Origin: Candidatus Competibacter phosphatis
GTDB taxonomy: Bacteria > Pseudomonadota > Gammaproteobacteria > Competibacterales > Competibacteraceae
Reading direction: 5' to 3'
Length of the DNA stretch: 64,000 nucleotides
NCBI RefSeq assembly: GCF_012939995.1
Contig: NZ_SPMZ01000023.1
Coordinates: 1-64,000, forward strand
Under the pieces are notes generated by a model that had not been told where the DNA came from, searched no databases, and saw only the letters and a program-made list of their open reading frames with translations. The stretch's first letter is position 1. Every line of letters starts with the position of its first letter. Shown piece after piece: positions 57,148 through 63,749 of the stretch. Made by a program: the position numbers and the translations under genes.

Positions 57148-57165
57148 TTGGCATGGATAGTGCTC
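57148..57165 (+). promoter_or_regulatory. Sigma-54 promoter before nasT
   Basis: TTGGCATG-GATAG-TGCT has GG (57150-57151) and GC (57162-57163) separated by exactly 10 nt and agrees with TGGCACG-N4-TTGCW at most positions. The start near 57175 gives a leader of about 30 nt before nasT. No clear NtrC dyad is seen upstream. Confidence 0.65.
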
Positions 57166-57205
57166 AAGACCTCGGCGTCGGGTTTGAAGCACATCAAGGT
57201 CGCTG

Positions 57206-57788
57206 ATGAAAAAAAATCGAAGTCATGCTGATCGACGCTCATTCAGGGCGGTCGGCGATTTTGGAGCAGGCGCTGAGCGACGCCGGCTACCGGATTGCCA
57301 TCCGCATCGTCAGTACTGACCGGTTGCTACAGCAAGTGCGGGATATCAAACCCGATGTCATTCTGATCGATATCGACCTTCCCGATCGCGATACCCTGGA
57401 ACAGTTGCGCGATGTCGGGCGGAACCAGCCCAAACCCATCGTGATGTTCGCTGAACGCAGCGACCCCGAAACCACCGCCGCTGCCTTACGGGCGGGGGTT
57501 AGCGCCTACGTGGTTGACGATCTGAACCCTCGTCGCCTCAAACCCATCATGGATGTCGCCATCGCCCGGTTCCGTGAGTATCAGGCGCTGCGTCGGGAGC
57601 TGGAAGAAACCCGTAACCAACTTGCGGACCGAAAAATCGTCGAAAAAGCAAAGGGCTTGCTGATGAAGCAGCGCAATCTGAGCGAACAAGAAGCGTACCA
57701 GTCCTTGCGCAAGCTGGCGATGGATCGCAATCAGCGCGTGGGAGAAGTAGCGCGTACCGTGGTTTCCTTACTGGAGATGTTGAGTTGA
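57206..57788 (+). CDS. nasT: NasT-type ANTAR antitermination regulator (frameshift near start)
   Basis: A receiver-like plus ANTAR protein of 193 residues after correction. The N-terminal pseudo-receiver has DVILIDIDLPDRD; the C-terminal ANTAR helices (about 130-190) include KIVEKAKGLLMKQRNLSE, with the usual AKG and A-Y-x-x-L-R-K pattern. ATG 57206 has AAGG upstream and is followed by eight A (57209-57216). With seven, the protein starts MKKIEVMLIDAHSG as NasT proteins do; otherwise only an internal CTG/ATG at 57225 is in frame. NasT binds leader RNA to prevent termination and is held inactive by NasS without nitrate. No nasS is adjacent. Confidence 0.9.
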
Positions 57789-57923
57789 GTCGATGGTCTC
57801 TACTCAATGTGGTGCAGGCTGACGATGCTACGCGCCATGATAGGGCAAAATTTACCGGCACGAGTAGTGCGATATACTTTGTTTTTTTCATAAAAATGAT
57901 TGATGTTAAGTGCTTAAGATAAG

Positions 57924-57941
57924 TTGGCACGTATAATGCCT
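57924..57941 (+). promoter_or_regulatory. Sigma-54 promoter of the nrt-nir operon
   Basis: TTGGCACG-TATA-ATGCC has a perfect -24 box, and GG (57926-57927) and GC (57938-57939) 10 nt apart. The predicted start at about 57951 puts the first leader hairpin at +5, which supports both calls. Confidence 0.75.
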
Positions 57942-57954
57942 TAAAAATATCGGC

Positions 57955-58001
57955 AACTTTCCCCAATGGTGGGGCAAGTTACGCGGCTAACGGCGGTCGC
58001 G
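57955..58001 (+). promoter_or_regulatory. Tandem hexaloop hairpins, ANTAR (NasT) RNA target
   Basis: Hairpin P1: CCCC (57961-57964) pairs GGGG (57971-57974), extended by AACTT/AAGTT (57955-57959 with 57976-57980), loop AATGGT. Hairpin P2: CGCGGCT (57982-57988) pairs GGTCGCG (57995-58001) with G-U pairs, loop AACGGC. Both loops have six bases with A at position 1 and G at position 4, the known recognition feature of ANTAR proteins. The pair is followed by an intrinsic terminator. Confidence 0.8.
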
Positions 58002-58012
58002 CATCGGACAAA

Positions 58013-58059
58013 GGCGTCCACACCTCAGTATTTCATACGAGGCGTGGGCGCTTTTTTTT
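58013..58059 (+). terminator. Leader intrinsic terminator before nrtA
   Basis: GGCGTCCACACCTC (58013-58026) pairs with GAGGCGTGGGCGC (58039-58051), one A-C mismatch and one G-U pair. Inner bases GTA/TAC extend the stem to a TTTCA loop. Eight T (58052-58059) follow. It lies 25 nt before the nrtA start, so it must be read through for the operon to be expressed. Confidence 0.85.
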
Positions 58060-58084
58060 ATTGGCTACAAAATGGGTGCACGAC

Positions 58085-59513
58085 ATGAAAAACACCAATG
58101 CGACGAATAATCCGGTCCAGACTCCTGATCTGTCTCGGCGTAAATTCCTCAAAACCGGTGGGCTCGCGTTTGGCGGCGCCACCTTGCTGAGCGGGACGCC
58201 ACCTTGGTTGCGGACGGGCGCTTGGGCCGGCGAAGGCGGTGGTTTGGAGAAAACCAAACTCACTCTAGGATTTATCCCTCTTACCGACTGCGCGCCGTTG
58301 GTGGTGGCGGCGGAGAAGGGTTATTTCAAGAAATACGGCTTGGACGTGGCGCTGTCCAAGGAAGCGTCCTGGGCCAATATCCGCGACAAGGTCGCCATCG
58401 GCGAACTGGATGGCGCGCACATGTTGGCGGGCATGCCCATTGCGGCCAGTCTTGGCGTCGGCGCCTTGCCCAAGGCCACGATCACCGCGTTTTCCATGGA
58501 TCTCAACGGTAACGCCATCACCGTTTCCAACGACTTGTACGAACGGATGGTGAAAGCCGATCCCGAGGCGATGAAGGAGCGTCCTCTCAGCGCCCGTGCC
58601 CTAAAAAAAGGTCATCGATGCCGACAAAGCCGCCGGTAAGGAACCGATGACCTTCGCCATGGTGTTTCCCGTTTCCACCCACAATTACGAAATCCGCTAC
58701 TGGATGGGTTCGGCCGGCATCGACCCGGATCAGGATGTACGCCTGATCGTCATCCCGCCACCGCAGATGGTCGCCAATCTCAAGGCCGGCAACATTGTTG
58801 GTTACTGCGTGGGCGAACCGTGGAACGAGCGCGCGGTGGAAGCCGGCATCGGTCGCACCCTGATCACCAATTACGAGATCTGGAACAACAATCCGGAAAA
58901 GGTGTTCGGCGTCAATTTGGAATGGCACGAGAAAAACCCACGCACCCATCAGGCCTTGATCATGGCCTTGCTGGAAGCGACCCAGTGGATGGATCAGCCG
59001 AAAAATCGCATGGAGGTGGTGAGCTTGATCGCGCAGAAGTCCTACGTCAACGCACCGGACGAGGTGGTGAAGATGTCGATGACCGGCACCTTCAAATATG
59101 CCAAGGACGAAGAACCGCGTCCGCTACCGGATTTCAACGTGTTTTACCGCTATGCCGCCAATTTCCCCTGGCTATCGCACGCCGCCTGGTTCATCAGTCA
59201 GATGTACCGCTGGGGCCAACTGGAGCAGCCGGCCAATATCCTGCAAACCGCCGGTTCCATTTATCGCCCCGATCTGTACCGACAAGCGGCCAAGGCGCTA
59301 GGCGTGCCGTATCCCACCATCGATGTGAAAAAGGAAGGTATCAACGCGAAACCCTGGACGCTCAAGGAAGCCACCAGTCCGATTGCCATGGGTCCGGATC
59401 GCTTCTTCGACGGTGGGGTGTTCGATCCCGCGAAGTCAGGCGAGTACGTCACCGGTTTTGCCGTAAAAAATCTGAAGGTGACGCCCGAAGCATTGCTGAA
59501 AGCCAACTCCTGA
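58085..59513 (+). CDS. nrtA: Nitrate ABC transporter substrate-binding protein (frameshifted)
   Basis: A 475-residue NrtA after correction. A Tat signal (SRRKFLKTGGLAFGGATLL) exports it folded; the CmpA/NrtA domain follows (TLGFIPLTDCAPLVVAAEKG, ...NIVGYCVGEPWNERAV). An A7 run at 58603-58609 breaks the frame; six A gives ARALKKVIDADKAAGKEPM into the second half. The Tat signal shows it is the periplasmic binding protein and not the cytoplasmic homologue NasS. Followed by nrtB after 18 nt. Confidence 0.93.
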
Positions 59514-59531: not shown

Positions 59532-60485
59532 ATGAGTAAAGTTATTGCTTTAAGCACTGCGACCCGCATGGAACCTCAACGACTGGAAACACCCGCGCCA
59601 ATGATCGTACCCAACGAGCAAGTCGATGTGACTGCCGCCAATCGCGAACGACAACCGCCGGTCCCAAAGATGGAAACGGCTATCGCTCCAGTGTCGCGCA
59701 CCCGGACCCGCGTCGCGGCGGTTCTGCGCGCCATCTTGTTACCCGCCCTTACCTTCCTTGTGGTGCTGGCGATCTGGAGCTTCGTCAACGCTAAGATCAC
59801 CAGCGATATTCCCACGCCCGCCGAAGCCTGGACCCGAGCGGTGGAGGTGCTCGGTAATCCGTTCTACGACGCCGGGCCGAACGACATGGGCATCGGTTGG
59901 CAGGTGTTGTATTCGCTGGGGCGGGTGATGGCCGGCTTCGCCTTGGCGGTTGTGGTGGGTATTCCGGTGGGCTTCCTGATGGGTGCCAGCCGCGCCGTGC
60001 ACCAAGCCTGCTATCCGCTGGTGCAGATCCTGCGGCCGGTCAGCCCGCTGGCCTGGTTGCCCATCGGTCTGCTGATCTTTCAGGCCAAGGACCCGTCGGC
60101 GATCTTCGTGATCTTCATCACCAGCATCTGGCCGGTGATTGTCAACACCGCCGCCGGCGTGCAGGCGATTCCCCAGGATTATCTCAATGTGGCGCGGGTG
60201 TTGCAGCTCGGCAAACTGGAAGTGACCCGCCGTATCCTGATTCCCGCCACTCTGCCGCATATCCTGACCGGCATGCGGTTGTCGCTGAGCGTGGCCTGGA
60301 TGGTGATCGTGGCGGCGGAAATGCTGACCGGTGGCATCGGTATCGGTTTTTATGTCTGGGACGAGTGGAACAACCTCAACGTTGCTTCCATCATCGTTGC
60401 CATCGGCGTCATCGGCTTGGTCGGCATCTTGTTGGAAAGCGTGATGAATCTGGCGCAACGCCACTTTGACTACAACCGTCGTTAA
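59532..60485 (+). CDS. nrtB: Nitrate ABC transporter permease
   Basis: A 317-residue permease of the NrtB/SsuC type. An N-terminal cytoplasmic tail of about 65 residues precedes six membrane helices; the EAA-type loop is TRRILIPATLPHILTGMRLS. RPVSPLAWLPIGLLIF is characteristic of nitrate/bicarbonate permeases. Between nrtA and the ATPase gene. Confidence 0.94.
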   Translation: MSKVIALSTATRMEPQRLETPAPMIVPNEQVDVTAANRERQPPVPKMETAIAPVSRTRTRVAAVLRAILLPALTFLVVLAIWSFVNAKITSDIPTPAEAWTRAVEVLGNPFYDAGPNDMGIGWQVLYSLGRVMAGFALAVVVGIPVGFLMGASRAVHQACYPLVQILRPVSPLAWLPIGLLIFQAKDPSAIFVIFITSIWPVIVNTAAGVQAIPQDYLNVARVLQLGKLEVTRRILIPATLPHILTGMRLSLSVAWMVIVAAEMLTGGIGIGFYVWDEWNNLNVASIIVAIGVIGLVGILLESVMNLAQRHFDYNRR

Positions 60486-60498
60486 TCGGGAGATCGCC

Positions 60499-61290
60499 AT
60501 GAGCTACCTGAATATTTCCAATGTGGACGTGGTGTTTCCCATCGTCAACGGTACGTACATCGCCTTGCGTGAGGTCTCTCTCGAAGTCGAAAAAGGCGAA
60601 TTCATCACCATCATCGGCCATTCCGGTTGTGGCAAGTCCACGGTGCTGAATGTGGTCGCCGGTTTGTTGCAAGCCACCCGTGGCGGCGTGCTGCTGGAGA
60701 ATCGGGAAGTGAACAGCCCTGGTCCGGATCGCGCCGTGGTGTTCCAGAACCATTCGCTGTTGCCGTGGCTGACGGTCTACGAGAACGTGCGCATCGCGGT
60801 GGACAAAGTGTTCGGCAAGAGCAAGACCAAGGCCGAGCGTCACGACTGGACCGTGCATAACTTGAAGCTGGTGCATATGGAGCATGCGCTGGATAAGCTG
60901 CCTGGCGCGATTTCCGGGGGCATGAAGCAGCGGGTCGGAATCGCCCGCGCCTTGGCGATGCAGCCGAAAGTGTTGTTGATGGATGAGCCGTTCGGTGCGC
61001 TCGATGCCCTGACCCGTGCCCATTTGCAGGAATCGGTGATGGAGATTCAGGCCACGCTCAATAACACCGTGTTGATGATTACCCACGATGTCGATGAAGC
61101 GGTGCTGTTGTCCGATCGCATTGTGATGATGACCAACGGTCCGGCGGCAACGGTGGGCGAAATTCTGCAGGTGGATTTGCCCCGTCCGCGTAACCGCTTG
61201 GAATTGGCCGACGACTCGGCCTACAACCACTATCGCGCCGAAGTTCTGCGTTTCCTTTACGAACGGCAGCGTCGGCCAGACGCAGCGTGA
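60499..61290 (+). CDS. nrtC: Nitrate ABC transporter ATP-binding protein
   Basis: A 263-residue ATPase of the NrtC/NrtD class without the C-terminal NrtA-like domain of cyanobacterial NrtC, so NrtD-like in form. Walker [11 protein letters not shown]-loop [13 protein letters not shown], signature [15 protein letters not shown], Walker [14 protein letters not shown]-loop [11 protein letters not shown] 60499 follows GGGAGA. Confidence 0.94.
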
Positions 61291-61316
61291 ATGGGACCGT
61301 GAAGGAGAATGCAACG

Positions 61317-63749
61317 ATGAAAGAACGTCTGGTTTTGGTAGGCAACGGTATGGCCGGGATGCGCACGGTGGAGGAATTACTGGCGATCGCCCCGGACAAA
61401 TTCGACATCACCGTGTTTGGCAGCGAGCCCCACGGTAACTACAACCGCATCATGCTGTCGCCGGTATTGGCGGGCGAAAAGACCGTCGATCAGATCATGA
61501 TCAACGATTTGTCCTGGTACGCGGAGAAGGGTATCCGCTTGCATGCCGGTCATGCCGTCGTCGACATTCACCGTGCCCGGCGCGAAGTCCGTGCCGCCGA
61601 CGGTACGGTCGCATCCTATGATCGATTGTTGCTGGCGACCGGATCCAATCCCTTCATCCTGCCGATTCCGGGCAACGATCTGCCGGGCGTCATCGGGTTC
61701 CGCGACATCAAGGATGTGGAAACCATGCTGGCGGCGGCGCGCACCGGCAAGAATGCGGTGGTGATCGGCGGCGGCCTGCTCGGTCTGGAAGCCGCCAACG
61801 GACTGATGAAGCAAGGGATGCAAGTCACCGTCGTCCATGTGCTCGATACCTTGATGGAACGGCAACTCGATCCGGTCGCGGCCGACATGCTACGCGCGAA
61901 CCTGGAAGAGCGGGGACTGCGCTTCCTGATGGGCGCGCAAACCGCCGCCCTGCTCGGCGAGGAGCGGGTGCGCGCCGTGCGCTTCAAGGATGGCCTGGAA
62001 ATTCCCACCGATCTGGTGGTGATGGCGGTCGGTATCCGACCCAACTTCGAGTTGGCCAAGCAGATAGGAATCTATTGCGAGCGTGGTATCGTCGTCAACG
62101 ACACCATGCAGACTTACGATCCGAGGGTGTATGCGGTCGGCGAGTGCGTGCAGCATCGCGGCCAGTGCTACGGTTTGGTCGCGCCGCTGTGGGAGCAGGC
62201 CAAGGTCTGCGCCAACCATCTGGCGCGTTACGGCATCGGCCGCTATCAGGGATCGGTGACCAGCACCAAGCTCAAGGTCACCGGCATCGACCTGTTCTCC
62301 GCCGGTAGTTTCAACGGTGGGCCGGGCTGCGAGGAGATCGTGTTGCGCGACCCGGCGCGCGGCGTCTACAAGAAGCTGGTGGTCAAGGAAAACCGCGTGC
62401 AGGGCGCGGTGCTGTACGGCGATACTGTCGATGGCTCCTGGTATTTCCAGTTGCTGCGCGAAGGCACCGACATCGGCGCTTTCCGCGAAACCGTGCTATT
62501 CGGTCACGCCCACATGGCCGATTCGGGCCGGGACGGCTTCAGCGTGATGACGATGGCCGACGACGCCGAGATTTGCGGGTGCAACGGCGTGTGCAAGGGC
62601 GCGATCACCAAGGCGATCGCCGAAAAGAAGCTGTTTACCCTCGACGAAGTGCGCGCGCACACCAAGGCATCGGCTTCCTGCGGTTCCTGCACCGGTTTGG
62701 TCGAACAGCTTCTCGCCGCCACCGTCGGCACCATCGGCAAGACTCCGGCCGAAAAACCGATGTGCAAGTGCACCGAGCATTCGCACGACATGGTGCGCGC
62801 CGCGATCCGCGAACAACATCTGACCTCGCTGGCGCAGATCTTCGAGGCCCTCAACTGGAAAAACCCGGACGGCTGTCACTCCTGTCGTCCAGCATTGAAC
62901 TTTTACCTGATCTCGACGTGGCCCAGCGAGGCGAAAGACGACCAGCAGTCGCGCTTCATCAACGAGCGCGTGCACGCCAACATTCAAAAGGACGGCACTT
63001 ACTCGGTCGTCCCGCGCATGTGGGGCGGCCTGACCAATCCGCAGGAATTGCGCGCCATCGCCGATGTGGCCGACAAGTTCCAGATCCCCACGGTGAAAGT
63101 GACCGGCGGCCAGCGCATCGACCTGCTGGGCGTGAAAAAAGAGGATTTGCCGAAAGTTTGGGCTGACCTCAACGCCGCCGGCATGGTGTCCGGCCACGCC
63201 TACGGCAAGAGCCTGCGCACCGTGAAAACCTGTGTCGGTACCGACTGGTGCCGGTTCGGCACGCAGGATTCGACCGGCCTCGGCGTCAAGCTGGAGAAGA
63301 TGACCTGGGGATCGTGGACGCCGCACAAATTCAAAATGGCGGTTTCCGGTTGTCCGCGCAACTGCGCCGAAGCCACTATCAAGGATTTCGGCGTGGTCTG
63401 CGTGGATTCCGGTTATGAAATTCATGTGGGCGGCAATGGCGGCATCAAGATTCGCGGCACCGATTTGCTGTGCAAACTGGCGACGGAGGCGGAAGTGAAG
63501 GAGTACTGCTGCGCGTTCATGCAGCTTTACCGCGAGGAAGGCCGCTATTTGGAACGCACCGCGCCGTGGATCGAGCGGGTCGGTCTCAGCTATGTGAAGT
63601 CGCGCATCGTCGAGGACGAGGAAAATCGCAAGGCGCTCTGTGCCCGTTTTCTCGAATCGCAACAATATGCCCAGATCGATCCCTGGGCGGAACGCGCCGG
63701 CGGACGCGTGGACGCCCACGAGTTCCAGCCTTTGCAACGAGTGGGTTGA
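61317..63749 (+). CDS. nirB: Assimilatory nitrite reductase (NADH), large subunit
   Basis: An 810-residue cytoplasmic NirB that reduces nitrite to ammonium. Order: FAD/NAD(P)H domains (LVLVGNGMAGMRTVEEL, VVIGGGLLGLEAANGL), a Bfd-like [2Fe-2S] domain (CGCNGVCKG and CGSCTG), then the siroheme/[4Fe-4S] reductase domain with Cys in TCVGTDWCRFG and SGCPRNCAEA. The ATG at 61317 has a GGAG site and begins directly at the flavin domain; an upstream ATG at 61287 would add ten residues. Siroheme may depend on cobA at 47.1 kb. Confidence 0.96.
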   Translation: MKERLVLVGNGMAGMRTVEELLAIAPDKFDITVFGSEPHGNYNRIMLSPVLAGEKTVDQIMINDLSWYAEKGIRLHAGHAVVDIHRARREVRAADGTVASYDRLLLATGSNPFILPIPGNDLPGVIGFRDIKDVETMLAAARTGKNAVVIGGGLLGLEAANGLMKQGMQVTVVHVLDTLMERQLDPVAADMLRANLEERGLRFLMGAQTAALLGEERVRAVRFKDGLEIPTDLVVMAVGIRPNFELAKQIGIYCERGIVVNDTMQTYDPRVYAVGECVQHRGQCYGLVAPLWEQAKVCANHLARYGIGRYQGSVTSTKLKVTGIDLFSAGSFNGGPGCEEIVLRDPARGVYKKLVVKENRVQGAVLYGDTVDGSWYFQLLREGTDIGAFRETVLFGHAHMADSGRDGFSVMTMADDAEICGCNGVCKGAITKAIAEKKLFTLDEVRAHTKASASCGSCTGLVEQLLAATVGTIGKTPAEKPMCKCTEHSHDMVRAAIREQHLTSLAQIFEALNWKNPDGCHSCRPALNFYLISTWPSEAKDDQQSRFINERVHANIQKDGTYSVVPRMWGGLTNPQELRAIADVADKFQIPTVKVTGGQRIDLLGVKKEDLPKVWADLNAAGMVSGHAYGKSLRTVKTCVGTDWCRFGTQDSTGLGVKLEKMTWGSWTPHKFKMAVSGCPRNCAEATIKDFGVVCVDSGYEIHVGGNGGIKIRGTDLLCKLATEAEVKEYCCAFMQLYREEGRYLERTAPWIERVGLSYVKSRIVEDEENRKALCARFLESQQYAQIDPWAERAGGRVDAHEFQPLQRVG

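Follow-up and report, generated by a model that had tools for sequence, protein, structure and literature searches.

The nasT–nrtA locus

The window, that is, the whole 64,000-nucleotide stretch of DNA analysed, belongs to a 4.39-Mb, 94% complete genome of the Competibacteraceae, a family often encountered in wastewater plants, a setting in which the handling of nitrate is important. An untranslated leader on the plus strand sits between nasT, which encodes a receiver domain joined to an ANTAR RNA-binding domain, and the start codon of nrtA at 58085 (Table 1). The original prediction had placed nasT just upstream of the leader, and both the adjacency and the Pfam ANTAR and Response_reg matches agree with this. 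The nrt/nir genes lie directly 3′ of the leader in most relatives.

Table 1. Features of the nasT–nrtA region, in window coordinates.
Feature	Position	Strand	Details
Sigma-54-type site before nasT	57149..57164	+	TGGCATGGATAGTGCT; 9/11 consensus match
nasT	57225..57788	+	Pfam ANTAR 72 bits, Response_reg 48 bits
NtrC-like palindrome	57831..57847	.	CGCGCCATGATAGGGCA; 9/12; putative enhancer
Sigma-54 promoter of leader	57925..57940	+	TGGCACGTATAATGCC; score 9/11
Hairpin 1	57955..57980	+	hexaloop AATGGT (57965–57970), A1 and G4; putative outer recruitment hairpin
Hairpin 2	57982..58001	+	hexaloop AACGGC (57989–57994), A1 and G4; putative inner recruitment hairpin
Hairpin 3	58006..58019	+	GGAC[AAAGGC]GTCC, A1 and G4; predicted antitermination hairpin, overlaps terminator
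Intrinsic terminator	58010..58059	+	helix 58010–58051, then T8 tract 58052–58059
nrtA (nitrate-binding protein, twin-arginine signal)	58085..59513	+	NMT1_2 133 and 187 bits, in two pieces
nrtB (permease)	59532..60485	+	NCBIfam TIGR01183, above cut-off
nrtC (ATPase)	60499..61290	+	NCBIfam TIGR01184, above cut-off
nirB (assimilatory nitrite reductase)	61311..63749	+	NCBIfam TIGR02374, 936 bits

When the genes were compared with those of the close relative L011 and others, one extra A was observed in the A-run at 57208–57215, in the start region of nasT, and another at 58603–58609, within nrtA. The former leaves the nasT domains intact, and the sequence suggests that nasT probably starts at 57204 rather than at 57225, the start having been thrown out of frame by the additional A in a run of eight. 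The latter disrupts the frame of nrtA, which is intact in the relatives. The extra As are probably sequencing or assembly errors. Both frame-broken genes are members of one system.

Leader architecture

The original prediction described a GG-N10-GC promoter, two tandem hairpins with the hexaloops AATGGT and AACGGC, and a strong U-tract terminator before nrtA as a complete leader. The promoter was found, both hairpins are present with A at loop position 1 and G at position 4 (A1/G4), and the terminator ends with its T8 tract at 58059; transcription would start near 57950. The two hairpins do not, however, make up the complete array, as a third A1/G4 hexaloop (hairpin 3) had been overlooked. It is located between hairpin 2 and the terminator, and its 3′ half forms the 5′ arm of the terminator, which includes the loop AAAGGC and the stem GTCC. 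Nowhere else in the 64-kb window do three A1/G4 hexaloops lie in tandem on stems of 4 bp or more, and the leader folds more stably than its shuffled counterparts (z = −5.0).

Folds were predicted for growing transcripts. The results showed that hairpins 1, 2, and 3 are all present in transcripts ending at 58021 to 58046, and that at 58052 the terminator supplants hairpin 3 while hairpins 1 and 2 persist. Thus, hairpin 3 and the terminator are mutually exclusive in the predicted folds, with the swap occurring only once the 3′ arm has been made, which identifies hairpin 3 as the competitor of the terminator. Hairpins 1 and 2 form in both states and do not overlap the terminator; they therefore cannot be the switching pair that they had been taken for. 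By analogy we infer, for these roles as for the order of the relay, that antitermination would be the task of hairpin 3 and recruitment that of hairpins 1 and 2.

Conservation within Competibacteraceae

Eight Competibacteraceae leaders, from the window and from L005–L011, were compared. A1 and G4 are kept in all three loops of all eight, and the spacing is equally fixed, loops 1 and 2 lying 45 and 21 nt before loop 3 in every case. Loop 1 varies (AATGGT, ACTGGC twice, ACCGCT, AGCGAC, ACCGAC, ATTGGC, and AAAGGC), the changes being confined to positions 2, 3, 5, and 6. The helices of these leaders are 98.8% paired; two-sided changes occur in hairpin 1, at four of its pairs, with 97% of the cells paired. 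The terminator helix covaries in a set of 35 leaders.

Survey across Gammaproteobacteria

To survey the design more widely, we used a covariance model consisting only of the hairpin 3 sequence and the terminator, and thus blind to the upstream part, on 369 Gammaproteobacteria (in the GTDB sense) and 39 genomes of the family Competibacteraceae. Merging near-identical leaders and adding loci found via nasT gave 117 proteobacterial leaders. When upstream hairpins with a hexaloop and a minimum stem of 5 bp were counted, 99 of 135 had A1/G4, where 1 in 16 would be expected with even letters. Under a slightly different stem rule, 75 leaders had one additional upstream A1/G4 hexaloop, 25 had two, one had three, and 16 had none. 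At least two were thus found in 26 of the 117 leaders versus 0.09 from shuffles (which gave 4.5 leaders with one), a count that, like the others of the survey, overstates the number of separate origins, since related species are not independent. Any letter pair other than A1/G4 yielded at most one leader with two upstream hexaloops.

The first covariation test of hairpin 3 was biased because the sequences had been picked for that stem, and we relied instead on 84 new leaders outside the model-building set, in 72 of which hairpin 3 is retained; many of the loop-position-1 exceptions belong to a separate element before coaBC (see below). The recurrence of the triple-hexaloop design in several lineages is real and extends to a genome that matches P11/NalA strongly (L090/L128). 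Triple leaders make up 22 of 57 with nasT adjacent, 2 of 14 with NasS adjacent, and 3 of 46 elsewhere, and the excess beside nasT may simply reflect kinship.

Seven leaders (L030, L119, L129, L130, L184, L197, and L200) have a single upstream A1/G4 hexaloop 49–62 nt before loop 3, and several of them carry a stable non-ANTAR hairpin in the gap. Strict hexaloop spacing has been reported for EutV, and by analogy the gap hairpin may act as a spacer.

Proposed nitrogen input through sigma-54 and NtrC

Sites scoring like the leader promoter occur at 0.125 per kb in the window, and its GGC and TGC elements are invariant in the eight Competibacteraceae leaders. A second sigma-54-type site, which the original prediction did not mention, precedes nasT and recurs at −73 to −76 in six of seven Competibacteraceae relatives. 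The NtrC-like palindrome is found at −91 to −93, scoring 9–10/12, in all six other Competibacteraceae leaders scanned, those for which the upstream DNA reached far enough. Palindromes of such score are common (about 1.1 per kb), and the argument for this one is therefore its fixed position. Both NtrC and RpoN are encoded in the genome. Taken together, these observations suggest a feed-forward arrangement in which nitrogen limitation, presumably acting through NtrC, would raise both NasT and the RNA on which NasT acts. The nitrogen-limitation arm of the proposed AND gate is thus well supported by the conserved position of the NtrC-like site and by the second sigma-54 site.

Which regulator reads the leader

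The leader has at least two tandem A1/G4 hexaloops, the last of which overlaps the terminator, and an ANTAR protein is both linked to it and co-occurs with it. NasT and the leader were found in exactly the same 10 of the 39 family genomes. Since the co-occurrence is complete for NasT and NasR-like proteins are present in only two of those ten, NasT is the likely regulator. With three conserved hexaloops, a conserved sigma-54 promoter, and an adjacent, co-occurring nasT, the proposal of an ANTAR-type antitermination leader held up. From the sequences, we consider the leader to be a NasT-controlled transcription-antitermination leader working as a standard on/off terminator switch, with a probability of roughly 0.8.

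The possibility exists that a NasR-like protein, which combines a NIT nitrate sensor with an ANTAR domain, reads the leader and supplies the nitrate input in trans, with NasT being secondary. Such a protein is encoded on contig C17 of the same genome (NIT 148 bits, ANTAR 75 bits), and Klebsiella NasR recognises the same loop letters. We nevertheless find this unlikely, as NasR-like proteins occur in 3 of the 39 family genomes and in only two of the ten leader carriers, all ten of which have NasT, and as the NasR gene is unlinked to the leader whereas nasT is adjacent. On the co-occurrence, we rejected NasR as the general regulator; in this genome, the NIT-ANTAR protein could also act on the leader. 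It is still less probable, to the point that we give it very little weight, that the locus chiefly makes a sigma-54-dependent small RNA, the terminator being its 3′ end and any readthrough incidental. The best Rfam resemblance is indeed to a catalogued Pseudomonas sRNA, P11 (30 bits across the whole leader), but that match is under the Rfam cut-off, the hexaloop letters and the conservation of hairpin 3 are what ANTAR readthrough requires, and in most relatives the next genes are nrt/nir. No model-matching leader was found near the NasR-like NIT-ANTAR gene itself (L202:7860–9161, on C17).

Nitrate input and the apparent absence of NasS

NasS keeps NasT inactive until nitrate binds in Paracoccus and Pseudomonas. 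We searched for NasS using the NasS proteins of related loci as a yardstick, which score 267–301 bits against Pfam NMT1_2. The results showed that, in the 94%-complete genome of the window, only NrtA scores strongly and the next best protein reaches 67 bits. NasS was likewise not found in seven NasT-bearing relatives of the family (G373, G380, G383, G385, G386, G390, and G394; five of them 99–100% complete), each of which has one strong NMT1_2 protein, NrtA. G303 has a second strong NMT1_2 protein beside NrtA; G375 has none, the reason being that its contig seems to break off close to nrtA. Of 12 genomes outside the family that have nasT immediately 5′ of the leader, 11 have a single strong NMT1_2 protein. 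The twelfth (G405) has a second strong match in a frame of 747 residues that probably encodes an NrtC-type fusion. Two control genomes with nasT–nasS gave two strong NMT1_2 proteins each. Thus, of the NasS–NasT system, nasT is present and nasS was not found, and NasS appears from the genome sequences to be missing here and in many other genomes with NasT leaders. A tie between the absence of NasS and the twin-arginine signal of NrtA was considered and dropped, as it applies to many but not all cases (L025, L027, and L035 lack the signal).

None of the 26 aligned NasT proteins has the conserved receiver Lys, which phosphorylation signalling requires, and this clade has Ala in place of the Thr; a phosphorelay, or other phosphorylation signalling, to NasT is therefore unlikely. 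Since NasS, the known nitrate sensor for NasT, was not found, and NasT has a receiver without the conserved Lys, the AND gate lacks support for its nitrate arm in the form in which it had been proposed.

With NasS missing, NasT may be permanently active, and it may be the amount of NasT, not nitrate, to which the switch responds. It is thus possible, at rather less than even odds, that NasT is constitutively active in NasS-less bacteria and that the leader relays nitrogen limitation only, leaving nitrate unsensed; this concerns the input only, and the switch itself would be the same. The failure to find NasS, both here and in relatives whose genomes are near-complete, and the lack of the receiver Lys are consistent with such an arrangement, in which the sigma-54 site before nasT would provide a feed-forward delay. 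On the other hand, the leader is clearly selected in genomes where a plain promoter would suffice, and another partner could gate NasT, such as the paralogous NrtA or c-di-GMP, the latter as reported for NasT of P. putida. For the way in which nitrate reaches NasT here, the candidates are constitutive NasT, the paralogous NrtA, or another ligand. We tentatively suggest, at somewhat less than even odds, that NasT leaders of this kind form a class with three docking steps, two at recruitment hairpins and one at the antitermination hairpin, in bacteria where NasS-less NasT is gated in another manner, for example by NrtA or by NasT dosage alone.

Comparison with known systems

The NalA leader of the Pseudomonas nirBD operon, reportedly treated by Romeo in 2012, is presumably the same as Rfam RF00625 (P11). 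A review covering NalA describes a sigma-54/NtrC promoter and a terminator relieved by NasT (PMC12830290). Since such control is already published, the headline of the original prediction, joint control by sigma-54 and NasT, is known biology, here in a further organism. Like NalA, the leader has a sigma-54 promoter with an NtrC-like site, a terminator putatively relieved by NasT, and a nitrate/nitrite assimilation operon downstream. Unlike NalA, it has nasT directly adjacent without nasS, and nrtABC comes first. It scores 30.1 bits against P11, where the gathering cut-off is 70; L090/L128, a P11 match with 126 bits, has three A1/G4 loops ending in GGAC[AAAGGC]GTCC, with a first stem of only 3 bp. 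The narK RNA (RF03032) shares the AACGGC-loop hairpin followed by GACAAAGrCGUC, but the leader reaches 26.9 bits versus a cut-off of 43.2, and the 3′ half alone aligns. At the gathering threshold, the leader had no Rfam match, P11 and narK being below cut-off.

The A1/G4 letters and the overlap of the last hexaloop with the terminator are as in the ANTAR dual-hexaloop antiterminators of E. faecalis eutP, K. oxytoca nasF, and P. aeruginosa amiE (PMC3369931, PMC8934654), whereas the leader has three tandem hexaloops, not two. As in the Paracoccus denitrificans NasS–NasT system, NasT is a receiver–ANTAR protein and the leader lies between the regulators and the structural genes; nasT is there under NtrC control, for which the putative sigma-54 site may be the counterpart in the window (PMC3795266, PMC5424462). 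A NasS, which P. denitrificans has, was not found here, nor in the relatives that are near-complete.

The leader departs from the textbook in its array of three hexaloops, and the genome in apparently having no NasS. Neither a triple array nor NasS-less NasT is mentioned in the accessible parts of the ANTAR/NasT literature, taken without the key NalA papers (Romeo 2012, Nie 2024). A paper on the EutV–RNA structure argues that the ANTAR dimer contacts the hexaloops successively, starting with the recruitment hairpin and ending with the one for antitermination. Natural leaders in which three hexaloops keep a fixed spacing offer a direct test of this relay model, and NasS-less NasT in many beta- and gammaproteobacteria raises the question of what signals nitrate to NasT.

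Proposed mechanism

At the level of sequence, the three conserved hexaloops, the mutual exclusion of hairpin 3 and terminator in predicted folds, the conserved promoter, and the co-occurrence of NasT with the leader are consistent with the following switch. When nitrogen is limiting, both nasT mRNA and the leader would be transcribed by sigma-54 polymerase, with NtrC as the probable activator. If no active NasT is present, hairpins 1 and 2 would fold, the terminator would swallow hairpin 3, and transcription would stop near 58059. Active NasT would instead dock on the A1/G4 hexaloops as they emerge, with hairpins 1 and 2 as recruitment sites from which it would be relayed to hairpin 3; by holding hairpin 3 closed, it would block the terminator and allow transcription of nrtABC-nirB. 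The published ANTAR mechanism agrees with this switch.

A second terminator element and other ANTAR proteins

A second match to the model lies between radC and coaBC (L201:4311–4475; C38:34810–34974 of the same genome). This element has a sigma-54-like site (TTGGCAATCGGTTTGCT) and a hairpin, GGCGGCTAACGGGGGCCGCC, that hardly varies, whereas its third loop can begin with T, C, G, or A. About 21 genomes of the Competibacteraceae carry the element, and many of these have no NasT. We did not treat it as a NasT leader, given the variation at loop 3 position 1 and its presence in NasT-less genomes. The genome also encodes two Hpt + receiver + ANTAR proteins with an unusual ANTAR domain order (L003:1426–2514 and L004:1294–2400, on C81 and C94), which could be partners of the coaBC element; each of their genes apparently adjoins a kinase-like gene.
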